A stretch of 64,000 nucleotides of DNA from Argentina anserina (Eukaryota > Streptophyta > Magnoliopsida > Rosales > Rosaceae), in assembly GCF_933775445.1 (NCBI RefSeq), contig NC_065878.1, forward strand, positions 9,621,395 to 9,685,394, given 5' to 3'. The number at the start of each line of letters is the position of its first letter. Positions within the stretch are counted from its first letter, which is position 1. Shown in pieces: positions 11,461 through 51,908 of the stretch. The notes below the pieces were generated by a model. The model made no database searches and was not told the DNA's origin. It saw only the letters and a list, made by a program, of their open reading frames with translations. Made by a program: the position numbers and the translations under genes.

Positions 11461-11631
11461 TGTCACATCCCGCCAAACTTAGTCAAATTTTACCTTGAGC
11501 ATTCTAGGCGGATCCAGAATATAACAGAATTCTTTGGAAGATCCTAGAAGGCGTTGGAAGTCTCAAGAAGCCTTTGGACATCTCCGGATTTCTCTAGAAC
11601 CATGGAGAGGCTAAGAGAACAAGACCACTCC

Positions 11632-11646
11632 AGAATTTTCTAGAAT
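11632..11646 (+). promoter_or_regulatory. Perfect heat-shock-element-like motif in the LTR
   Basis: The sequence reads a-GAA-tt-TTC-ta-GAA-t, a three-unit nGAAnnTTCnnGAAn motif. It lies about 112 bp upstream of the TATA box. Further GAA units at 10-bp spacing follow (11663-11690). The 3' LTR copy has CTC in place of the middle TTC. Confidence 0.45.
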
Positions 11647-11757
11647 ACTCAAGGAAGATCTTAGAATTGTGTAGAATTGTATAGAATTCTCTAGGGTCAT
11701 CTACAGTGTACATAGTCCTAGAATTCTCTAGAACTCGTGATGTAGGAGGAGGAGGCC

Positions 11758-11765
11758 TATAAATA
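11758..11765 (+). promoter_or_regulatory. TATA box in the 5' LTR
   Basis: tataaata occurs in ggcctataaatagc. The 3' LTR copy reads ggcctaaatagc (about 19210-19218) and so lacks it. Confidence 0.6.
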
Positions 11766-11969
11766 GCAAGACACCGCTCACATTTGATCCGTCAAGCAAT
11801 CAAGCAAGAAGCCATCAAGCATATTTGTAAGAATATAAGTTCTCTTTAGAGACATTCTCTTTGTCTTTCAATTGTTCTAGCAGAACGATTGCGAGAGTAA
11901 GGCTGACTTAACATAAGGGAGTTTCTAAGGCCGCACGAGTAGCATAGCAAAAGAGTAAGCTCGTGACAG

Positions 11970-11982
11970 TTGGTATCAGAGC
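11970..11982 (+). other. iMet primer binding site
   Basis: ttggtatcagagc, complementary to the 3' end of plant initiator methionine tRNA, lies 2 bp after the LTR. Confidence 0.85.
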
Positions 11983-12012
11983 CGAAGTTCATCAAGAGGC
12001 TAGCTCGACATA

Positions 12013-16600: not shown

Positions 16601-16796
16601 TGAAAGCATCACGCCAAACTTAGCCAAATTTTACCTTGAGCATTCTAGGCGGATCCAGAATATGGCATAACTCTTTGGAAGATCCTAGAAGGTGTTGGAA
16701 GTCTCAAGAAGCCTTTGGACATCTCCGGAGAACCATGGAGAGGCTAAGGGAACAAGACTATTCCAGAATTCTCTAGAATACTCAAGGAAGATCTTA
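16601..16796 (+). repeat. 3' LTR of the chromodomain element, first piece
   Basis: It is nearly identical to 11461-11660 (cgccaaactta...caaggaagatctta), apart from a 12-bp deletion and a changed start (tgaaagcatcacgcc). It is interrupted at the TTA used by the PIF/Harbinger insertion. Confidence 0.85.
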
Positions 16797-19115
16797 GGAA
16801 GTGTTTTGGGTAAGGGACTTGGAAGAGGGAGATGACATTTTGAAGGGATTTCAAATCCCCGTGGAGAAATCCCTTATTTGGCAAAAAAAACGGGGAGGGA
16901 CTTTGATTACCCGGGATTTTAACGAGGAATATTAGAAGGGATTTTCATTAAGAAAACTTCCGCCCCTAAGTTCCGTGTCGATAGGTGGAATTTTAAAATT
17001 CCATTTCGCCAGGAGCCAGTCTCGATTTCTCGCTCTCTCTACTCTTGGCATCGCTTGTCTTCAGGTTTGATCTCCACCTTGGGCTTTCATTTCTCTCTGT
17101 ATTCTAGGATTAAATTGTTGAGTTTGGTATCTTTTTGATCTCCAATTTGATCGATTTCATCTGTGGTTACAGTTGGGGGAATTTGTATTAAGCCGTATCC
17201 CTCCTCCAAATTTAGCCTCTTCAGGCGTAACCTTCAGAAATTCCAAAGAAGCGTCATTTTTTCCGGCTCCATCGCTCATCTCCAGGTTTTTTGTTCTTCA
17301 TTTGCTTATGTGATTTCTCAAACAAATTTAATGCCAATTGATGGCTTGCATTCATTCAATCTTAGGGATGTTGATTGTTTGCTGTGTTTTGAGTTCTGGG
17401 TTTCAAACATGTGAGTAAATAATATGCTCAATATTCATGATTCAATCTTATAAAGCCCGGATTGTAAGTTTCAATATTATAAAGCTCAGTTTGATGGTTT
17501 GATTTTCCTTTTTGAACTGCTATTCTTACTGGGTGTGGTGTGGTTTTGCTGAATTATATATTTTTTGGTGTGTTATGATGCTGTGTTGTTAGTGGCTTAA
17601 TATATAAAGTTGTATGCTGGTTTCAGTTTGAAAATTTAAAAGAAGTGAATGTATAACAGAGGGAAATGACATAGATGAATGATATTCTGTGTGGAAGTTC
17701 CAATTATTGTTTGTCTTTTGCTCTCGAGCCCAGAGGCTTTCTTCTTGTTATTGACTCTTATCCCTGCCCTTCTCCCTTTCTTCTTCTCTATTATTACAAT
17801 TCCATTTCAAAATTAAAGTTCCATATATATTTACCTGGAAGGAGCAAACTGGATGACTCATCCTTCATCCTCATGGGCAAAGGTTGGTATACATTTGTTT
17901 TAATTTGGATGCACTTCTCCTAGATTGACCAGAAAATTGAACTGAACACACAAGCATCTTGATACAATTCAATACTAACTGTTCCGATTGGTAAATTTGC
18001 AGGCCTGAGTGCCAGTTCAGTTAGTTTGTGCATTATGGTCAATGAATATGTTCTTTTTGTATAGATAAAAAGTAATTACAGACTTATAAAATTTTCTTTT
18101 GGTCTAAAGACTTGTATGTTTGCTAGAGTCATTAATTAGTGTGAAAGAAGTATGAGCAGTAATGCATCATTCAAGTAATTCATATCAAGAGACGAGATTT
18201 AAATCAACTAATTAAATGAATCTCTCCTCGTTCATTGATTTGAATCAAAATAGTCCGATGCTCAACTGTGGTGCAGTGTTAGTTTTCAGTTGTTGGATTA
18301 TGATTGCATTTATTCAGGAAGTAGTGGTGCTTCATTTAACAATTATCAGGAATTAATTTAGAAACTGTTATTGTGAAGAAGAAAAAATGATGTTGACTAT
18401 GTTATGATGTCTACTACATCCTTGACTCGTATTGAAATGTATATTTCAGGCATAGCAAATACCATGGATCTCCCAGAAAAGTTGCTTCCTCGTATTTCAA
18501 GTCGGCTTAGAGGAATTGATGCATTTGAAAAACAAGCTATAAAGTTTACTTCAAGAAAGGTTGGTATATCCTTTCTGTTTCATTAGGAGATTAAATTTGA
18601 TCCTTGATTTTTGACATTATTTAAACATGTTTCTAGGTAGCAGCTATTTCTGGAGATGCTCGTTGTGCATTGGAGATATGCAGGCGTGCAGCTGAAATCA
18701 CATCTTACTGCATATTGAAGTCTAATGCCATAAAATTTTGAACTCATATGTTATTGTTGTCATGTTTGATATGTTATCAATTTTCTTAGAATATTTGACA
18801 TTTTAATATTATAAATGTAAGTACATTGTGGATCCAAATTGTGATGGAGACTTCAATGGTTGCATGTTTAGAATTATTTGGTGATACAAATTTCTCATGT
18901 TTTATGATAATTTGGTTAAAAGAAAATAATTATTTTTTAAAACATAAATATGTTTACAAATTCCATGATTAAATTCTTTTTATCAAATAAATTACCCAAA
19001 CAAGTCATTTTAATAATTCACTCACTAAGTCCCTTCATTTTAATATCTTATCACCTTGAAATCCCTTCATTTTAAAATCCCTTGTCACTTTCAAGTCCCT
19101 TACCCAAACACAACC
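16797..19115. mobile_element. PIF/Harbinger-type transposon carrying an ORC1 gene fragment
   Basis: It is flanked by TTA on both sides (16794-16796, 19116-19118), the PIF/Harbinger target duplication, and splits an LTR whose intact copy is at 11461. The left end is GGAAGTGTTTTGGGTAAGGG and the right end inverted is GGTTGTGTTTGGGTAAGGG. Similarity continues inward (gacttg...gaagggattt). At 2319 bp it has no transposase frame. Its inside holds intron/exon-like host DNA, including ORC1 at 18450-18741, so it is a non-autonomous, gene-capturing element. The segment 16980-17920 looks like a 5'-UTR or exon/intron region of an unidentified gene. Confidence 0.82.
18450..18741 (+). pseudogene. Captured fragment of ORC1 (origin recognition complex subunit 1)
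   Basis: Exon-like text at 18450-18559 encodes GIANTMDLPEKLLPRISSR and then LRGIDAFEKQAIKFTSRK. After a short GT-AG intron (18560-18636), the next exon encodes VAAISGDARCALEICRRAAE. This matches the AAA+ ATPase region of plant ORC1, the DNA-licensing subunit. A stretch of roughly 20 residues expected between the two ISSR occurrences is absent, consistent with deletion between the short repeats. An acceptor-like ttcag precedes the first exon. Introns are kept, so capture was of genomic DNA. The frame ends at TGA (18739-18741). No full gene is present. Confidence 0.72.
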
Positions 19116-19118
19116 TTA

Positions 19119-19271
19119 GAGTTGTGTAGAATTGTATAGGATTCTCTAGAGTCAGCTACATTGTACATAGTCCTAGAATTCTCTAGAACTAGTAATGTAG
19201 GAGGAGGAGGCCTAAATAGCAAGACACATCTCACATTTGATTCGTCAAGCAATCAAGCAAGAAGCCATCAA
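19119..19271 (+). repeat. 3' LTR of the chromodomain element, second piece
   Basis: It continues the LTR (gttgtgtagaattgtatag...gaagccatcaa) and matches 11668-11820. The TATA region is altered to ggcctaaatagc. It is interrupted after atcaa by the next insertion. Confidence 0.85.
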
Positions 19272-19533
19272 TGTAATATCCCACATCGGCCAACGGAGAG
19301 AGGGTGATGCGTCTTATATGTACATGCCCACCTCTATCTAACGCGAGGCCTTTTAGGGGCTCAATGGCTTCGGAGCAGAGGAGAACTCCGAAGTTAAGCA
19401 TGCTTGGCCCAGGGCAATCCCAGGATAGGTGACCCGCTGGGAAGGTGCTTCTGAGCTCCCAAAAACAAAACCGTGAGGGCTATGCCCAAAGCGGACAATA
19501 TCGTGTTACGGCGGAGCGGTCCGGGTCTTGACA
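19272..19533 (+). repeat. Cassandra-type LTR (262 bp)
   Basis: It begins TGTAATATCCCACATCGG and ends GGGTCTTGACA. It carries 5S rRNA-like sequence in its middle, the hallmark of the Cassandra TRIM family, and is followed by an iMet primer site. Confidence 0.78.
19380..19450 (+). promoter_or_regulatory. 5S rRNA-like segment with Pol III internal promoter boxes
   Basis: gaactccgaagttaagcatg (box A region) is followed by aggataggtgacccgctggg (box C region), in the spacing of plant 5S RNA. The 5' third of a 5S gene is not recognisable, so this is not a true rRNA gene. In Cassandra this segment may recruit TFIIIA and Pol III. Confidence 0.7.
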
Positions 19534-19535
19534 GT

Positions 19536-19548
19536 TGGTATCAGAGCC
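19536..19548 (+). other. iMet primer binding site
   Basis: tggtatcagagcc lies 2 bp after the Cassandra-type LTR. The same site type is used by Tekay/Del chromoviruses, so it is the likely junction of the two parents. Confidence 0.8.
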
Positions 19549-22229
19549 TAAGTGCGTATTTGGCGATTATCAATACCATCCAGGAGCGATGATCCGACTG
19601 CAGGCGGGCTCCCATCACATGCTCCTCGGTATAGATATGTTGTCGGGTACGCGAGAGTGTTAGGAGCCATACCATATGGTTTGGTCCTTTAGAGAGTATC
19701 GTGATGATACTCCGATGATTCACCTTCATACGAAATTCCATGATTGATATCAGTTGGATCTATTTTGTCGAATTCGAGACTTCACATATATGACTGAGTG
19801 TTAATTGTTGAATGGTGATGAATTTGGGAAAACGGCCGTGGACAGGGCCGAGGACGGACGAGAGGTCGAGGCCGAGTTAGGGCTGCAGGCCTAGTCCGCA
19901 ATGTGGAGGACCTTTATGAGGAGGTTGCTCCACTGGAAAGACAAGTTGATCTTGTTGCTATCGTTAGAGATGATAGTCGTGTGTTGAGGTTGATCAAGGA
20001 CATGAGTGAGCTACTAGTGCTGTAATTTCATGACGCTTGGATCATATGGTAACGGACCATTGGATCGAGACTATTGGGACTTACTTGGTGATGATTGAGT
20101 ACTCTGGGTTAGAGAAGAAGATGATAGCCACATTCATTTATTGATAGTTGGCAGTGGAAGGGTTAGGATTGATTCCTACGTCTATGAGAAACTCTTTATG
20201 TGTCACTTCGCTTTTGGAGTGTTCCTCGAAATTGGAGACAATGAAAGGCTTGTCCTGTTGTGATTGGAAGTAGAGAGTTCTCTGCTTATTTGATAGTGAT
20301 TCCGGACCACACTATGATGTGATCTGAGGAATTGATTGGTTGAGGCCGCAGTACGCGGTGATTGATTGTGTTGACGTGATGAGTTCATTCATAGACCCAG
20401 AAAATCAGTGTTTCATTACCATTGCTTCAAAACGGTTAATGCCATGAGAGCTTGAGTCAGGGCATATGTCGAGTAAGTGGATCTGAAGTAGCTATCATAG
20501 ACATCGTTGTGATATCAGAGTAAAGTGAGACGTTTCAAGAGATATTGTGTTATAGCCCCTACAGCGAAGATGCCGTATGGATGGGACAAATGAATTCAAA
20601 GACTTAATGACTGGTGCGATCAGCTTAGAGAGGCTACAATACTCCCTGAGTTGACATGCGATCCAAATACTGGAATGCAAACAGGTTTGAGTATATAGTT
20701 TCCTATCAGGACAGAGAACTATCAAGGAGTCTTGATAGAGAGCGTTGACCCTATGTTGAGGGAGGTTCAGTGTTTAAAGGTTGAGGACTAGATTTTAGTT
20801 ATGCAACTAATCTAGAGATGTGTAGACCATAGGTTGGAGGTGGTTAACGAAAATTGTCGTGACTAGCATCACTAACGTTATTGATAACAGAGGGGTAGGG
20901 CGTGTGATACGTCCTTAGGGTGGTAATACAATTATTGAATTGAGATTCACATTTTGTCGACGTGACATTCCAAACTTGTTTTGGTTCGGCTATAGACAAT
21001 TGATGTTACGCATTAATATTGGCTGAGTAAGAAATATAAGGTGATGGAGAAATCTCAACGTGGCGATATGAATTAATTATTTGCTAGATGAGCATTTAAA
21101 TGAGAACGCTTATCTTTCAGGATTTAATCATTTTGGTATTGGAGATTGGAACTTCACAATGCCTCAGGTCCAAATGAGACGCAATGACGGTGAAGTAACT
21201 CTATTGAAGGTAAGGTATGAGATGACCTTAGCTTAATGGTGTTTTGACGAATTTTTCGTGACAAGCACCTTCCAACCGGTAAAGAAATGGTTGAAAATCA
21301 AATTTTCTTTTCAAGTGCAAGTGGTGTTAGTATGGGAAGACTTAGATGCTCTTCTTCCCTCTATGCATCAGATTTTTATTGTTGGATAAGGCGAAGTTGA
21401 CTGAAGTGTTCAACAAGGGATAATTCTACAATAAAGAGTAATCAATTATATTGCTGTTCGCAGAGAAGTTATGTTGGCCGAATGTGTCGGCCATGAGAGT
21501 TCTTAATGAAAGTAAAGAAACAACTGTTTAGAGTGGTGGTGTAGCAACCATTTTTGGGTTGATTTTGAGGAGACAATAGACCTAATAACCAGCTTCTGTT
21601 GTTGAATTAATTGCAGAACTTATTAGTACTACGACGGTGGGGGAAATCAATATGTTAGATAATGCCACTGGGGCATTTGTGTGGAATCGTATGTCATGAA
21701 TTTGAGGCATATATGAACTAGGGGGTAAAGTATATCGCGGTCGCGGTCTTGTAGGATTTTGCGCTGTAAATTCGCTTAATTTTCATGTTCCACCGTTGTG
21801 GGATAAATACCACCTTGGTCTGACTTGTAAATTGTGGCACACCACTCAGGAAAGCAAGAAGCTGAAATTAATTTTCGACGGTAAGTTTTGATAAGAGGGG
21901 TAGGATGCGTGATGCATCTCTCTCTTGTGGTGGTGGTAGAATTTTCTACAACCTTTTGCGTATATTAGTCAATTCTCTGGTGAACTGTTTGAGAGTAATT
22001 CTTAGTCCAAGGTGGTGATTCTGTGGTGGTTGTGAACTCGATGAGTTAAGATTTCCTTATCGTGTTGCCGATACAAATAGGGTACTTGGGTGGGTATCAT
22101 GCACGACAGTTACCATTCCAGCGTCGACATGGTACCCTATGAGGCACTTATGGTAGACCATGTCGATCTCCGATCTGTTGGGCCAAAGTTGGTGATGATG
22201 CACTGATGGGCCCAGAGGTGGTTCAGGAA
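19549..22229 (+). pseudogene. Heavily decayed gag-pol of a Tekay/Del-type chromovirus
   Basis: A basic Gly/Arg-rich start is readable near 19815-19890 (ggccgtggacagggccgaggacg). A protease tail can be read at about 20284-20400 (YDVI, then GIDWLRPQYAVIDCVD). RT, RNase H and the integrase core cannot be read in any frame over 20400-22200, because stops and rearrangements are too dense. The space (about 2.7 kb) is also shorter than a full gag-pol, so large deletions are inferred. Confidence 0.5.
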
Positions 22230-22748
22230 ACCACTGAGAAGATCTCGATCACTCGGAATAGAATCCGGACCGCACAGAGCAGACAGAAGAGCTATGCAGA
22301 CTTGAAGAGAAGACATAGAATTTGAGATCGGTGATCATGTGTTCTTGAAAGTTTCACCCATGAGGGGTGTAATGAGATTCGGCAAGAAGGAAAAGTTGGC
22401 ACCGAGGTGCGTTGGGCCCTTGAGATACTTGAGAAGGTGGGCGAACTAGCATATCGACTAGCCTTGCCTACTAGCATGTAGGGCGTGCACAACGTCTTCC
22501 ACATTTCCATGTTAAGGAAGTATGTATCAGATGAGTCACATGTGATTGATCATAGCACCATTGAGGTGAAGGAAAATGCTACATTTGTTGTCGAACCGGT
22601 TCGTATTTTGGATAGATCCACAAAGAAGCTTCGGAGGAAAGACGTGGAGCTAGTCAAGGTATTATGGAGTCACCATGACGAGGGTGATGCATCTTGGGAG
22701 CTAGAGTCAGACATGATAACCAGATATCCACAGTTGTTTGTTGAGTGA
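22230..22748 (+). pseudogene. Integrase C-terminus and chromodomain of the Tekay-type element
   Basis: Readable text includes RTAQSRQKSYADLKRRHREF, then EIGDHVFLKVSPMRG and GPLEILEKVGELAYRLALP, the GPY/F module. A stop precedes HNVFHISMLRKYV. The last 87 codons are open and end in a chromodomain-like VLWSHHDEGDASWELE and the stop at 22746-22748, 40 bp before the right LTR. This is the usual end of a Tekay/Del polyprotein. Confidence 0.75.
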
Positions 22749-23107
22749 GCTTGAATTTCGGGACGAAATTCCTTTAAGGGGGGTAGATTGTAATAACCCC
22801 AATTTTTTCAAACAATATTTGATTTGAAATAAATTCTATAAAGTTTTGAAATTCATTTAAATTGAATTCGATTTGTTTGCAAACGTTACGAAACGGAAAC
22901 GGAAACGTTCCGAGAATGTTTAATAAGAAAACGTTACGTTTCCGAACGAATTTACCGACTTTTATTTCGTCGTTCGGTTGTGGAAACTTTCTTCACGAAA
23001 GTTGTAGAGCTCGTCGATACGAGTTCGTGAGCATGTGACGCGTTCTAATCGGACGATGTATATGAAAGTTATTAACGATACAAGTTAGTGTCCGATTTAA
23101 AAAGGGG

Positions 23108-23115
23108 TATATAAG
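23108..23115 (+). promoter_or_regulatory. TATA box in the Tekay-type LTR
   Basis: tatataag lies within aggggtatataagg and is followed 50 bp later by a pyrimidine-rich leader. Confidence 0.5.
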
Positions 23116-24057
23116 GAAACTGAACAGAAGTAGGGTTTCCATTTTCGGAAACCCTCTTCTCTCTCTTATCCCGCGCCTCCATCTCTCTCTCTCTCCCTCT
23201 TCTCTCTCGCTCTCTTCCCGATCTCCCTCCCACGCCGGCGATCTCGCCGAATCCGTGGCCGTGTCACTCACCGCCCCTAGGGAAAGCTTCGCACGGTCCT
23301 CCTTGCCAGACCCCGAGAAGATCGCGTCCTCTCTCTCGACGCCGTTCGCCGCACCGAGCCTCCCCCTTCGAAAACTCCATCGCCGACGATCGCCTTACCC
23401 CAACAGTCGTACGCTACACCGCTCCTCCCTACGACATCGCGAGGTCCATCTCACCAACACCCCAAGCTCGCCACACCGCCCCTCACCCCGAGCCGAGCAC
23501 GATCGATCCGACTAGCTTCGATGCTTCCGAGAGATTGATTAGGTGAGGATTTACGTTTAATTGGTTGTGATAATTGATTGTTGTAATTTGGGGATCGATT
23601 TGATGAATTGTGGGGATGAATCGGGGGTGGGAGGTGAGGGTGGACCACCGCCGCATTAAGCGGCGCGTGTGGAGGTGTAGGGTGGCGTAGGGGCGGCCTA
23701 AGGCCGGAGGGAAGGAGAGGGGAGAAAGTAGGAGAGATTTGAGGTAGCGGTGGCGTGCGACGCGCCGTGGTTAGCCTCGGCGCGTGGGCCCCACGCGCGG
23801 CCCGCCGGAGGTGGCGCGTGTGCCACACGCGCCGCCACGTGCGGCGGTGGGAACGGTTTTGACAGAAGGGTATTTTGGTAATTTACTGTGTACGGTAAAT
23901 GTAAATGTAATTTTTATTTACTACGGTAAATGTAATTAAATTTTACCTACGGTAAATGTAAATATAAATTACTTTCAGTAAATGTAAAAAGTAATTTTGT
24001 AAAAGGGTAATTTAGTAAATTTTATTTACTGAATTTGTATTTACATTTTAAATCGTA

Positions 24058-24370
24058 CGTATACGTACAGAAATACGTATTAATATTTATACGTACAGAA
24101 ATACGTACTAATATTTATACGTACAGAAATACGTATTAATATTTATACGTACAGAAATACGTATATAATATTTATACGTACAGAAATACGTATTAGTATT
24201 TATACGTACAGAAATACGTATTAGTATTTATACGTACAGAAATACGTATTTATATTTATACGTACAGAAATACGTATATAATATTTATACGTACAGAAAT
24301 ATGCATATAGTATTTATACGTACAGAACTACGTATATAATATTTATACGTACAGAAATACGTATTAATTG
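24058..24370 (+). repeat. 28-bp tandem array built on TACGTA palindromes
   Basis: About eleven copies of tatacgtacagaaatacgta plus a short AT spacer are present. Each unit contains two TACGTA sites around cagaaa. Confidence 0.85.
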
Positions 24371-25247
24371 CATATTTGTACAGTATCCGGGAATAGTAAC
24401 AGTGAATAGTACCACTGAACAGTAACTTCGTAAAACCGAAAATTGCTGAACAGTAACCGATTATTACTGTTTCGGCATTTAAAGGTTACGAAACGATTCT
24501 AAATTCTTTTCTTATCTGTTCAAGGTGATCATTAAATCGAGGAAAGGAATATCATCGGGAATTGTGGAATTACGCTCGAGTCGATAAGGTGAGTAAAATC
24601 TCACTGAATTTACGAATCTACCCTCGTGGTGATTCAACATTTTGCAAGTGTGTTTATCAAATGAATTATAACATGTATATAATTTAGTGGACTACATATA
24701 TATAGTATAATGGTAATAGGTACATAATATATATATAGTTCATTAAATTATGTACTGTTATTAATTCATTAAAAATAGTCATTTCGGTGACGGAAAATTG
24801 AGCATGAGTATGTGAGAATATTGTACGTAATTCTTCAGGTGTTTATGAATTATGACATGTATAGGATATAGTGGACTATGTATATATTGTATAAATGGTA
24901 ATAAATACGAATATATATAGTTTGCTATATAGTATACTGTTATGATTTTTATTGTGGTGATATCATGAAAGTTTTAAAACGTACAATATGATGAGTGATT
25001 ATTGTACATGATTTTATCACGGAGAATGTAATAAATTGTGAGTTGTCTTCGGACGTGATGTGTGGTACAATATGATGTGTGATTATTGTACGTGTTTTTA
25101 ACATTGAAGTTGTTAAAATGTGATTTGTCTTCGGACGTGATTGTTGGTACAATATGATGTGAGATTATTGCACGTGTGTGGCAAGTCGGAACCTAGCCTT
25201 TGGCCGGGCGAAAGTTACGATACAGTTAGAGCTCTAGTCTGTCAGCC

Positions 25248-25620
25248 ATAGTACTTCATGTGAGGTAACGGGTGGTTATCTACTCATGAGTACTCCGATT
25301 GTTTTGGATGTTGGGTAGCGGGTGGTTACCCAATATCACCATAGTACTTCATGTGAGGTAACGGGTGGTTATCTACTCATGAGTACTGAGATTGTTTTGG
25401 ATGTTGGGTAGCGGGTGGTTACCCAATATCACCATAGTACTTCATGTGAGGTAACGGGTGGTTATCTACTCATGAGTACTCAGATTGTTTTGGATGTTGG
25501 GTAGCGGGTGGTTACCCAATATCAGAGTAGTACTGCATGTGAGGTAACGGGTGGTTATCTGCTCATGGGTACTCAGATTGTTTTGGATGTTGGGTAGCGG
25601 GTGGCTATCCAATATCAGCG
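25248..25620 (+). repeat. 93-bp tandem repeat, four copies
   Basis: Copies start at 25248, 25341, 25434 and 25527, each with atagtacttcatgtgaggta and two halves ending gtaacgggtggttatc and gtagcgggtggttacc. The first three are almost identical; the last is diverged. Confidence 0.85.
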
Positions 25621-26224
25621 GTGTATTACGAGAGGGGTAACAGATGTGTACCAGCGTTCTTGGTACCCGTATTATAAATGCATTGGGTAACCAGAAGGGT
25701 TACTTAATTTCCTCATGAGCGTTTTATTTCATATTTCTTGGGTCAACCAGATGGGCTGACTATTGACTCATGAGGGCATTTATATTTGTTGTTTTGTGAT
25801 CTTTCGTATATATTGATATGCGAACTGTATTGTGATTTTACTCATACGAGCTATAAGCTTACCGGGTTTGTGTTTACAATCCCGGTGCACCAATTCGATG
25901 GTGTAGGGGATAATTCCGCAGGTGCTGATTAGTGGAGGTTGGGTGACGACTACAGAGGCTTGAAGTCGTTCATATTCTACTTGCGGTGAGGTTTTTAGTG
26001 TGGACTTGTGTGTGAGAATTTGTGAGTGATCTGTGAGGATTATTACATTTCCATTTGTGTATGGATTATAATTTGGGTTGTAATAATTGGTTGTCTGAGT
26101 TGTATTGAGAACTCAGAATTGATCCGCTGTTACACTTTAATGATTTCTATTTATTTGAGATTATTTTGTGTTTAACGACTTTAGAATTTTGAGTTTTTAA
26201 GCTTGAAATTTTAGGGTCGTTACA

Positions 26225-26395
26225 ATCAAGCATACTTATAAGCTTTCTTTCCTTGTTAAATATAAGTTCTCTTTAGAGATATTCTCTTTGCCTTTCAATT
26301 GTTCTAGTATGGCAATTGTGAGAGTAAGTCTAACTTAACATAAGAGAGTTGCTAAAATGGCATGAGTAACATAGCAAAAGAGTAAGCTCGTGACA
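26225..26395 (+). repeat. 3' LTR of the chromodomain element, third piece
   Basis: It resumes with atcaagcata and ends agtaagctcgtgaca, matching 11815-11968. This closes the outer element. Confidence 0.85.
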
Positions 26396-42444: not shown

Positions 42445-42806
42445 AACAACATAAATACAGGAAGTTATTCCAGCAATTTGGGGATTAGGGTTCTTCGAGC
42501 AATAGGTCTGCTAGCATCGTCAAGAACTTGAGGTTAGATTACGACAACTCTTCCAGTTCCATATTCATATTCCTATCTGTGGAATCTTGATCAATGGTGA
42601 ACAGGACTGGCCAGGAGTAACCCATTAAAGATCTCTGAGAAGTTCTTTTTAAAGAATATAGATGAACAGGACAAGCCAGAGAGTACTTCAGCAAATTCTC
42701 ATGATTTTTCTTCTGATGATATCCCCATCATCGATTTTTCTCTGCTCTCAAGTGGGCACGAGGAGGAGCTTAAAAAACTGGATCTGGCTTGCAAGGAATG
42801 GGGATT

Positions 42807-43586
42807 TGAAGGTTCATATATTGGCCTCCATATAGTTGATGAAGATCCAAAGGTGTGGAGGACAAGTCATGAAGATTTGATATGCAAAAGGAGAATTGAA
42901 GTTGTTTCCTAATTGGACTAGGAAAAGATTATGGTTTGTTTTTCCTACCAAAGAAGTCTCCACCGATTTGATTATGGGTAGATTGATATATATTTGGGAA
43001 TATATATTTAGTTAAATGGTGTTTGGGAATTGTTATAGAAAAGGATTCAAAATAAAAGGTGTATTCCATATTCATATGGATTTTTTCCTTTTCTATGTGA
43101 GATGTATTAGGAAGGGAAGTTAGGTTTAATTCCTAGGGTTAGGGAATACATGTGGCTGCTATATATATGATGTATATAGGCAGTAGGTTGGGTGGCCTCT
43201 AGGAGATACACGAACAAGAAAAAAAGAGAGGAGAAAGAAGATGAAACCAAAGAGAAGAAAATTCACAAAAAGGGAAGCTTAGTGCTAGGAGATCTTTGTG
43301 ACTCCATTGAAGACCTTAGTGGCAACATCAACGTTCTTAGTGAGGTTGATCATCCGTGTGACTACAACGATCTTAGTGAGGTTGTATCGACACTTGAAGC
43401 AACGATCTTAGTGAGGTTGTTTCATGCTTGATTGTGACTATCAAATAAGAAGTATTTTTACTTTTGAGAATAACATTATTATTGATTAAGGTGTAATCAT
43501 TGTAATATCGTTTATTCAATAGAAAAGTAAAATTCTTCTACATATTCCGCTGCTATTACTCGTTATTGTTCTATCTTGTATTTTCA
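42807..43586 (+). repeat. 5' LTR of the SIRE-like derivative (780 bp)
   Basis: It starts TGAAGGTTCATATATTGG and ends CTTGTATTTTCA, 2 bp before the primer site. It contains ctatatatatgatgtatata (about 43160-43178), a likely TATA region. Confidence 0.88.
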
Positions 43587-47761: not shown

Positions 47762-48164
47762 TTCATTGCACAGTTCCTTACAGCTTGAGATCTTCATGTT
47801 TTCTTCCCTTATGCGTTACATTTCCTACCCCTTTTGGACTCTATTGCGTGTATATCTTTTAATCAAGGAAATACAACATGAAGCTTATATTGCTATCTCT
47901 TTTGTTCTCCTTATAGTGTGTTAAGTGTGCAGTCCTTTATCATGAGTGGAGCAAGGAGCACTCGTCATGAGATAGAAGAGGATGATGTTCAGATTACTTT
48001 CTCCTCCTTTGGCTTCATCAACTTAGGGGGAGAATCAAGTCCCTACGACATTAGTGTTTATGTTTGAAGTTTGTTTATCGAAAAGAAAATTGTACTTACA
48101 TTGTTCATGGTGGTCTTGTAGGTACTTGATGGTGAAAGTTGCATGGAAGGCCAAAGGGAGAGAT

Positions 48165-48833
48165 TGAAGGTACATATATTGGCCTCCATATAGTTGATGA
48201 AGATCCAAAGGTGTGGAGGACAAGTCATGAAGATTTGATATGCAAAAGGAGAATTGCAGTTGTTTCCTAATTGGACTAGGAAAAGATTATGGTTTGTTTT
48301 TCCTACCAAAGAAGTCTCCACCGATTTGATTATGGGTAGATTGATATATATTTGGGAATATATATTTAGTTAAATGGTGTTTGGGAATTGTTATAGAAAA
48401 GGATTCTAAATGAAAGGTGTATATAGGCAGTAGGTTGGGTGGCCTCTAGGAGATACACGAACAAGAAAAAAAAAGAGGAGAAAGAAGGTGAAACCAAAGA
48501 GAAGAAAATTCACAAAAAGGGAAGCTTAGTGCTAGGAGATCTTTGTGACTCCATTGAAGACCTTAGTGGCAACATCAACGTTCTTAGTGAGGTTGATCAT
48601 CCCTGTGACTACAACGATCTTAGTGAGGTTGTATCGACACTTGAAGCAACGATCTTAGTGAGGTTGTTTCATGCTTGATTGTGACTATCAAGTAAGACGT
48701 ATTTTTACTTTTGAGAATAACATTATTATTGATTAAGGTGTAATCATTGTAATATCGTTTATTCAATAGAAAAGTAAAATTCTTCTACATATTCCGCTGC
48801 TATTACTCGTTATTGTTCTATCTTGTATTTTCA
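48165..48833 (+). repeat. 3' LTR of the SIRE-like derivative (669 bp)
   Basis: It is nearly identical to 42807-43586 but lacks 111 bp, from after aaaggtgtat to before ataggcag. The lost part includes the TATA region. Confidence 0.88.
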
Positions 48834-50700: not shown

Positions 50701-51251
50701 CATCAGAGAAAAAAAAGTAAGCTGGTGCAATAAAATCCGCTGGGGACACGTTTCCTCTTAATTCCGCCTCTAGAAAAAACCTATAGGATAGGAGATGTAG
50801 TCAGGGAAGATCTCAAGTTCTCAACTAGTAAGAAATTTAACTAGATGAAACCCTTAGAGGGAGATCGCGACTAAGTGAATTTACACGAGAAAATGGAGAA
50901 AACATTCGAGCTCGAGGAATGTGTCAATGAGGTGAAAGGCATCTAGGAAAGATGAAATATTTTGAGAAAAATCTCAATGAAGTGATCCATCTTTTTTTTT
51001 TCTTCACCGGATATTGCTTATCTCTACTGCTATAAGAGAGATTTTAAATACACCTCAAATCTCTTAATACACATACATATTTAATACACCACCTATTTCA
51101 ATTATCATTTCAATATTTTTACTAAATACACCACATAAAAAACCTAAAATACTCTTGAATTAAAAAATCACAAAATATGTCATTATTTGAATATAAAATT
51201 CTACTTTTTATCATGATTAGTATATAAATATATATACATATATATATATAT
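50701..51251. other. AT-rich DNA with the left half of a split inverted repeat
   Basis: ctataagagagattttaaatac (about 51030) followed by acacctcaaatctcttaatac is inverted near 59425-59480 on the far side of the copia element. There is no gene. Confidence 0.35.
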
Positions 51252-51655
51252 ACAGTCCCTATCCAGAGTGAAGCTTCACTTTGAAATTACAGAGTGAAGT
51301 TCTAATTTTGACACACTTTTCGGTCAAATGTTTTCACCATAATCAATTCAATATTTAGGTATGCTATTCAAGATAATCTCTACAAAATTTCATCTAATTC
51401 GGACATCGTTAATGTATTGAAATTAGATTAAATCAATGAATGAATTAAAATTGTTCAACGTGAACCGTTCGTGTAAATCTCAATTTTGAAAGCTCAAACC
51501 ATTGTCAAATTGGATGAAACTTTGTAGAGATTATCTTGAATAACATATCTAAATATTGAATTGCTTATGGTGAAAAAAATTGACCGAAAAGTGTGCCAAA
51601 ATTGGAACTTCACTCTGTAATTTCAGAGTGAAGCTTTACTCTGGATAGAGACCGT
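51252..51655. mobile_element. Long-inverted-repeat MITE (foldback), 404 bp
   Basis: The left end acagtccctatccagagtga and the right end, read inverted, acggtctctatccagagtaa extend into arms of about 190 bp each (acttcactctgt..., cacttttcggtcaa...). It is flanked by TA-rich DNA, so the duplication (probably TA) cannot be defined. Confidence 0.65.
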
Positions 51656-51908
51656 ATATATATATTAACATCTTATAAATGTTCATATCGATTCTTGTTT
51701 GTTCTTACGAATCATTATAGATTGCAATTGTTTTTTTTTTTTCAAATTCTTTAACTATAAAAATGATAAACAAAATGAAGAATATATATATATAAGAGAA
51801 ATTGGTGAATTGATTGTTTGAAGAAAATGAACATTTCTTTGTTAAGAATCTAAGAAGATGAAATTTCATGAAGAATAAAAAATTATAATTTTTTTTCATG
51901 AATTACCT

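Follow-up and report, generated by a model that had tools for sequence, protein, structure and literature searches.

Chimeric retrotransposons joining Cassandra to a Tekay-like element in the genome of Argentina anserina

The insertion and its two parent families

The window analysed here is a stretch of 64,000 nucleotides from Argentina anserina (assembly GCF_933775445.1, contig NC_065878.1, 9,621,395-9,685,394, forward strand; positions are counted from window base 1), which contains at 19272-26224 a long terminal repeat (LTR) retrotransposon whose two ends belong to different families. In order, one reads a target-site duplication (TSD; ATCAA), a 262-bp LTR of Cassandra, a primer site, the internal region of a large Tekay-like element, a 3.4-kb LTR, and a second ATCAA (Table 1). 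The unit has one Cassandra LTR and is without any Cassandra internal region.

The insertion target is an LTR-like repeat of ~0.5 kb, and an insertion-free copy of it at 11466-11968 holds one ATCAA. More precisely, when the two are aligned, 11660-11968 spans 19115-19271 plus 26225-26395 and has ATCAA only once. Because of the TSD and this empty paralog, 19272-26224 is confirmed as one insertion that integrated as a unit. The initial annotation had concluded as much from the perfect ATCAA flanks and had called for a search for the empty site, which was thus found within the window itself. It had also named three observations that would speak against it, i.e., a Tekay LTR beside 19272, Tekay sequence starting somewhere other than the primer site, or a sign of an assembly join, and none of these was seen.

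The left LTR is Cassandra, as annotated. It matches other genomic copies over its full length at up to 98% identity (40 of 336 candidates scored), and it carries the box A, 18 nt, box C signature by which a Cassandra LTR is defined (PMC7215508, which also gives the primer site sequence). This is the sole exact match to the signature in the window, with 0 expected by shuffling. Native Cassandra copies in this genome consist of a 262-bp LTR, a tiny non-coding internal region of 74 bp, and a second LTR, with the primer site TGGTATCAGAGC. We had also considered the Rfam 5S covariance model as proof of Cassandra and dropped it: 5S is the best Rfam hit and spans the whole model, yet it is weak (14.3 bits, E 2.2, gathering score 38). 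The window LTR has no Rfam match at E <= 0.01.

The remainder belongs to a large repeat family. The stretch 19549-22788 matches internal regions of that family (40 of 1229 candidates scored, window copy included), the main pieces of the others being 86-93% identical, and 22789-26224 matches LTRs of the same family. The pattern for the junction between this LTR and its internal region has 419 genome matches at <=3 mismatches. The window copy is decayed, its chromodomain-like remnant scoring 21.2 bits against Pfam Chromo (E 2.7e-4; cut-off 25.1). The Tekay-like LTR also holds tandem repeats of ~28 bp and ~93 bp (24049-24398, 25246-25710).

Both families start with TGTAATA and end with TTACA (Tekay-like) or TGACA (Cassandra). 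Both also use the primer site TGGTATCAGAGCC, which we take to be of the initiator methionine transfer RNA type. The native Cassandra contexts examined read TGACA TT TGGTATCAGAGCC ACTC, except that an array at locus L035 (labels of this form denote loci) has TAACATT instead, and the native Tekay-like contexts read TTACA GT TGGTATCAGAGCC TAAG, with one AT spacer (L018) and one copy ending in AGGT.

Recurrence of the chimera

Similar junctions were found with genome-wide sequence patterns, which detect only the LTR-end/primer-site zone. Nine junctions lead from a Cassandra LTR into a Tekay-like internal region, and seven lead from a Tekay LTR into the 74-bp Cassandra internal region, while the reversed control patterns gave 0 in each case. 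These junctions make up 13 elements (A-M in Table 1, A being the window unit), three of which (B, C, and E) hold both kinds. The further chimeras that the initial annotation had suggested looking for therefore number twelve. If C denotes Cassandra and T the Tekay-like family, the elements fall into four architectures: C-T, T-C, T-C-T, and C-T-C. The T-C-T layout (B, C), for example, is Tekay LTR, Cassandra internal region, Cassandra LTR, Tekay internal region, Tekay LTR.

Perfect 5-bp TSDs flank 10 of the 10 elements for which both ends were located (I, L, and M are not assessable); in the case of F, G, H, J, and K, the second end was retrieved after the first had already been read. All four combinations of outer ends occur as integrated elements, in line with the family ends in common that the initial annotation had pointed out. 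By one count, a Cassandra LTR sits on 9/428 (9 + 419) Tekay-like 5' junctions. Of the 39 Cassandra internal regions identified through the junction at their 3' side, 6 are preceded by a Tekay LTR (the second Cassandra internal region of E matched the Tekay-LTR-to-Cassandra pattern, not the Cassandra 3'-junction pattern).

Each five-part element (B, C, E) looks like a single reverse-transcription product, because the tails of the outer Tekay LTRs are identical in B (438/438) and C (648/648) and the outer Cassandra LTRs of E (256/262 identical) share two variants absent from every other Cassandra LTR examined. Between elements, sequence comparison shows at least one event, F, to be clearly separate: its Tekay part is closest to a native copy behind a normal Tekay LTR (C6:34997372; 2717 of 2744 bits), and the next chimera, G, ranks 17 among 40 scored of 709 candidates. 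Among the chimeric Cassandra LTRs compared (I being too short), 11/12 are nearest or tied nearest to a copy outside the 13 elements. The Cassandra LTR of H is nearest that of B, though B has another architecture and another Tekay subfamily. In a comparison of Tekay parts that covered eight chimeras (A, B, C, D, E, G, H, and I) and nine natives, A, B, C, and D grouped together (86-94% in the pairs listed) and E-I formed a second group (90-98%); G, H, and I may be of common descent.

We considered whether one chimera had spread by transposition and rejected this, since F is nearest a native copy, 11/12 Cassandra LTRs are nearest outside copies, and, by reasoning, the two R regions of such a chimera differ.

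Chimera F also bears on the large partner. Its Tekay-like part matches Retrotrans_gag (2.1e-21), zf-CCHC (9.4e-11), Ty3_capsid (6.1e-9), and RVP_2 (1.4e-5), and its gag-protease frame is open to the end of the sequence piece examined, which places a coding element among the possible partners. Within the E-I group, F is the one examined in this way, and Ty3-type gag, CCHC knuckles, and protease are accordingly features seen in F only. The partner appears to be a Ty3-type, Tekay-like element, Tekay being the initial annotation's lineage label rather than a placement based on reverse transcriptase.

Table 1. Positions of window features, chimeric elements (A-M), and end-to-end joins. C, Cassandra; T, Tekay-like; C1: to C7:, contig labels.
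Feature	Position	Strand	Remarks
Left target-site duplication ATCAA	19267-19271		
Cassandra LTR (TGTAATATCC...CTTGACA), 5' end of insertion	19272-19533	+	
Cassandra 5S-type signature, box A - 18 nt - box C	19392-19434	+	exact match; definition PMC7215508
GT spacer, Tekay-like type	19534-19535	+	exchange point at it or just left
Primer-binding site TGGTATCAGAGCC, common to both families	19536-19548	+	Cassandra sequence per PMC7215508
Tekay-like internal region	19549-22788	+	non-coding in window copy (many stops)
Remnant open reading frame, 88 amino acids, chromodomain-like	22482-22748	+	Pfam Chromo, below cut-off
Polypurine tract within Tekay-like internal region	~22776-22787	+	
3.4-kb Tekay-like LTR (TGTAATAACC...GTTACA), 3' end of insertion	22789-26224	+	
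Right target-site duplication ATCAA	26225-26229		
Paralogous empty site	11660-11968	+	target repeat without insertion, one ATCAA
A, C-T	window 19272-26224	+	TSD atcaa
B, T-C-T	C2:1239702-1249337		TSD cctat
C, T-C-T	C6:32285553-32295371	-	TSD tctca
D, C-T	C4:10620545-10627000		TSD ttatc
E, C-T-C	C7:5440663-5449111		TSD atccg
F, C-T	C6:21540236-21548266		TSD atcac
G, C-T	C6:1416653-1424876	-	TSD atata
H, C-T	C5:2272554-2280494		TSD catag
I, C-T	C4:929867		Cassandra LTR 5'-truncated; TSD not assessable
J, T-C	C4:15583450-15586623		TSD tatga
K, T-C	C4:14840145-14843214		TSD atata
L, T-C	C4:5814621		no LTR start within 0.9 kb examined; TSD not assessable
M, T-C	C6:35783156		Tekay LTR reduced to last 54 bp; TSD not assessable
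End-to-end join	C2:3877918-3881545		
End-to-end join	C1:6135650		
End-to-end join	C3:30525814	-	
End-to-end join	C2:26903357		
End-to-end join	C6:14631879		
End-to-end join	C6:4904047	-	
End-to-end join	C5:1941364	-	
End-to-end join	C7:13430359	-	
End-to-end join	C3:15115689	-	

Exchange zone and possible origin of the chimeras

Switch points were placed using LTR base -4, the spacer, and the first internal bases. In the window element, the dinucleotide left of the primer site is GT, as in Tekay-like elements, while the Cassandra natives examined have TT, so recognisable Cassandra sequence stops at the LTR tip. Across all 16 junctions, the exchange lies in the primer site in 5, between -4 and the spacer in 8, and just upstream of -4 in 2, with 1 ambiguous. 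Cassandra-to-Tekay switches fall mostly at -4/spacer (6/9: A, B, D, F, H, I), with two in the primer site (C, G) and one upstream of -4 (E). Those from Tekay to Cassandra fall in the primer site in 3/7 (B, E, M), at -4/spacer in two (C, K), and upstream of -4 in one (J), L being the ambiguous case. The zone is therefore the one that the initial annotation had named; its exact point, just after the primer site, is not, since the switch is usually at the LTR/spacer border.

The families are alike in two places: the LTR end plus primer site (26 bp, 2 differences) and the polypurine tract plus U3 start (24 bp, 2 differences). At the second, a genome-wide pattern found that 0/39 Cassandra internal-to-LTR junctions reach a Tekay LTR. 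All 39 are followed by a Cassandra-type start, 38 of them by TGTAATAT and one (K) by TGTAATAACCC, which continues as a Cassandra LTR in L065. In the loci examined, each tract leads to its own family's LTR and no polypurine-side exchange was found in either direction (for a Tekay tract leading to a Cassandra LTR, this result covers those loci, not the whole genome).

The two families are also joined end to end. Cassandra ...TGACA-TTAT-TGTAATAACC Tekay joins occur at 7 places at <=3 mismatches (4 TTAT, 2 TTAA, 1 TAAA), and Tekay ...GTTACA-GTAT-TGTAATATCC Cassandra joins occur at 2. These joins keep two extra bases per side, TT or GT being the primer-site spacers and AT the dinucleotide preceding U3, and they may represent joined unprocessed ends of complementary DNA (cDNA), as in two-LTR circles. 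At C3:15115113-15125409, for example, Cassandra - Tekay - GTAT - Cassandra lies within a single cttgg duplication. Far ends were sought for 8 end-joined elements: one has a matching TSD (C2:3877918-3881545, where Cassandra - TTAT - Tekay LTR lies within ATCCT and the Cassandra start is read as TG changed to TA), three have Tekay LTRs that continue into internal regions, and 4/8 have no boundary in the piece examined. A TAAA join links a Tekay-like LTR to the L035 array (C5:1939800-1944800), which has six Cassandra LTRs and five internal regions; this Tekay-like LTR's own internal region has a different start, with AGGTTGCG following the primer site (L085). End-to-end joins imply that both cDNAs were together before integration.

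What calls for an explanation is a structure that arrived as a single insertion, that recurs, that was made in both directions, and that has a definite exchange zone. During reverse transcription, plus-strand strong-stop DNA comprises a full LTR with the primer site copied at its end, and replication requires this DNA to pair with the minus strand at the primer-site end. We think it likely that intermolecular plus-strand transfer, involving Cassandra and Tekay-like cDNAs packaged together, gave rise to the integrated window element, and that such transfer has recurred. Both would undergo reverse transcription inside one particle or compartment, the Tekay-like element presumably supplying the enzymes. 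Cassandra strong-stop DNA (whole LTR plus copied primer site) would then anneal to the primer-site end of the Tekay-like minus strand, extension would yield Cassandra LTR - primer site - Tekay internal region - Tekay LTR, and integrase would insert this chimeric cDNA with a 5-bp duplication.

The donor would be Cassandra in A, D, F, G, and H and the Tekay-like element in J and K. Reciprocal transfer of both strong-stop DNAs would close the two cDNAs into a ring, and strand displacement could open it at the Tekay LTR, giving T-C-T (B, C), or at the Cassandra LTR, giving C-T-C (E). Intermolecular plus-strand transfer, already proposed in the initial annotation, explains where the exchanges lie as well as the outer ends, and it likewise covers the reciprocal and double products found since.

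A broader reading, which we put forward tentatively and hold with less than even confidence, is that Cassandra, a non-coding element present plant-wide, is in this genome a satellite of one Tekay-like chromovirus family, having ends, primer site, and polypurine tract in common with it and travelling in its particles, where their cDNAs would often swap ends. On this reading, two-element rings formed by reciprocal exchange may also be the route by which Cassandra tandem arrays originate. The sequence TGACA-GT-TGGTATCAGAGCC is present in a further repeat of the window as well (11964-11983), so a common primer site alone does not single out the helper. The repeat in question is the target repeat of the insertion (11466-11988; 16607-26395), which resembles an LTR ending in TGACA; its first copy is followed by GT and TGGTATCAGAGCC, and another family may use this site.

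Several observations weigh against plus-strand transfer. The spacer is of recipient (internal-side) type in 10/16 junctions, and a textbook donor strand should bring its own; the recipient minus strand might extend a few bases beyond the primer site, or mismatch repair might act. The primer-site zone owes its share of exchanges partly to the design of the patterns, and the search covered one assembly and one partner family. Loci chosen by Cassandra similarity, which are less biased, show irregular Cassandra/Tekay joins elsewhere (L041, L043, L048). In L041 (C3:14710600-14714500), a Cassandra internal region breaks off after 35 nt, with a join at CGAG to the interior of a Tekay-like LTR. In L048 (1347-1532) and L043 (1880-2906), Cassandra units are joined to inverted Tekay-like internal sequence, possibly as self-integration or rearranged products. 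These irregular joins, together with the bias built into the patterns, have slightly lowered our confidence in plus-strand transfer. L041 also contains a Cassandra LTR-LTR junction with just 2 bp (TT) between the LTRs.

One rival is nuclear DNA recombination, in which complete cDNAs (linear or one-LTR circles) would recombine ahead of integration, using the nearly identical 26 bp at LTR end and primer site. The exchange zone is indeed a stretch common to both families, and the multi-LTR Cassandra arrays, the end-to-end joins, and the microhomology join in L041 show DNA of both families meeting and joining. However, the families resemble each other nearly as closely at the polypurine tract/U3 start, where no exchange was seen, and we consider this route unlikely, the best placed of the rivals as it is. 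Since this route, too, requires the two cDNAs to meet, the case for a helper survives under it.

Minus-strand template switching at the primer site, between a Tekay-like RNA and a read-through or tandem Cassandra RNA, seems quite improbable. A suitable template could exist, given the six-LTR array at L035 and the concatenated Cassandra transcripts mentioned in PMC7215508, but the left end is the exact Cassandra U3 start, which priming at the polypurine tract normally defines. On its own, switching on the minus strand yields neither this end nor a C-T-C element.

Post-integration recombination or gene conversion, acting on Cassandra and Tekay-like copies that had inserted separately, is scarcely credible here, although complex LTR elements are described as usually arising in this way (PMC1950507). 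It predicts unmatched flanks, and what is found is perfect TSDs in every assessable element and an empty paralog of the window target. To replace a single LTR precisely to the TSD, in element after element, would also need matching tracts at both edges each time. As for an assembly artefact that fused two elements, the last and least plausible of the rivals, repeats of this kind can be misassembled, but an error behind the window chimera is very unlikely because the same junction zone recurs at numerous unlinked sites, every one with a TSD of its own.

Related systems and other repeats

The kind of mechanism has been proposed elsewhere, for complexes of like elements and for human immunodeficiency virus 1 (HIV-1). 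Sabot and Schulman (2007, PMC1950507) proposed template switching between co-packaged RNAs for complexes that, like ours, are single integrations, with a TSD, of fused cDNA. Their parents are alike and have an LTR in common, the switch is at R, and the outer LTRs are alike, whereas here there are two families, different end LTRs in C-T and T-C, a switch at the LTR end/primer site, and reciprocal products. By the marks they use, TSDs flank the whole complex in all assessable elements (10/10, of 13), while the window unit lacks highly similar outer LTRs, which do match in B, C, and E. The same intermolecular plus-strand transfer has been proposed for HIV-1 proviruses with asymmetric LTRs (PMC9278108, in the part covered), a case of one virus with a deletion in one LTR as opposed to two element families.

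Cassandra arrays with the same box A/box C 5S-like LTR, primer site, and tandem arrangement as here have been described by Kalendar et al. (2020, PMC7215508), who name template switching as a possible origin. The sections of that account covered here call Cassandra's autonomous partners unknown and, unlike the present case, describe no chimera with a large element. The covered sections of Kojima (2024, PMC10886601) likewise offer no pointer to the family that mobilizes Cassandra. Helenus and Ajax from that paper resemble Cassandra as non-coding terminal-repeat retrotransposons in miniature (TRIMs) that have RNA polymerase III promoters and small-RNA-derived LTRs and need a helper; helpers were inferred from primer-site or internal similarity. 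A helper was also sought for a TRIM with a putative autonomous relative (Gao et al. 2016, PMC4717578, in part), and inferred from LTR plus internal identity, whereas here there are physical chimeras of families whose common sequence lies mainly in the ends, primer site, and polypurine tract. In rice, tandem LTR retrotransposons, which are Tekay-enriched, also form alternating LTR/internal arrays (perfect 5-nt TSDs in 10/28), but each seems to involve one family, not two, and the part of PMC11899658 covered leaves their origin open.

The literature searched, in which work on Cassandra recombination was covered in part, yielded no account of a fusion between Cassandra and a large element, and no such fusion is described in the covered parts of PMC10853983, PMC4717578, PMC9278108, PMC11899658, PMC4668562, PMC7602945, and PMC10886601. 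Made before integration and in both directions, the Cassandra/Tekay-like chimeras are genomic evidence for the machinery that Cassandra meets. They point to a helper for an element that codes for nothing, and the pair concerned is a concrete one. In addition, they resemble a fossil record of plus-strand transfer between families, including reciprocal products that are hidden in within-family events. For chimeric copies, both LTR-pair dating and LTR-match annotation fail.

Three other repeats lie in the window. The target repeat carries a second insertion of ~2.3 kb (16798-19114), which is DNA-transposon-like with the inverted ends GTGTTTTGGGTAAGGGACTTG / CAAGTCCCTTACCCAAACACAA. Direct repeats at 42806-43586 and 48164-48833 are ~98% identical and 5.3 kb apart, and they are perhaps the LTRs of another element. 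An inverted repeat at 51242-51665 has 186-nt arms, 86% complementary, with 52 nt between them.

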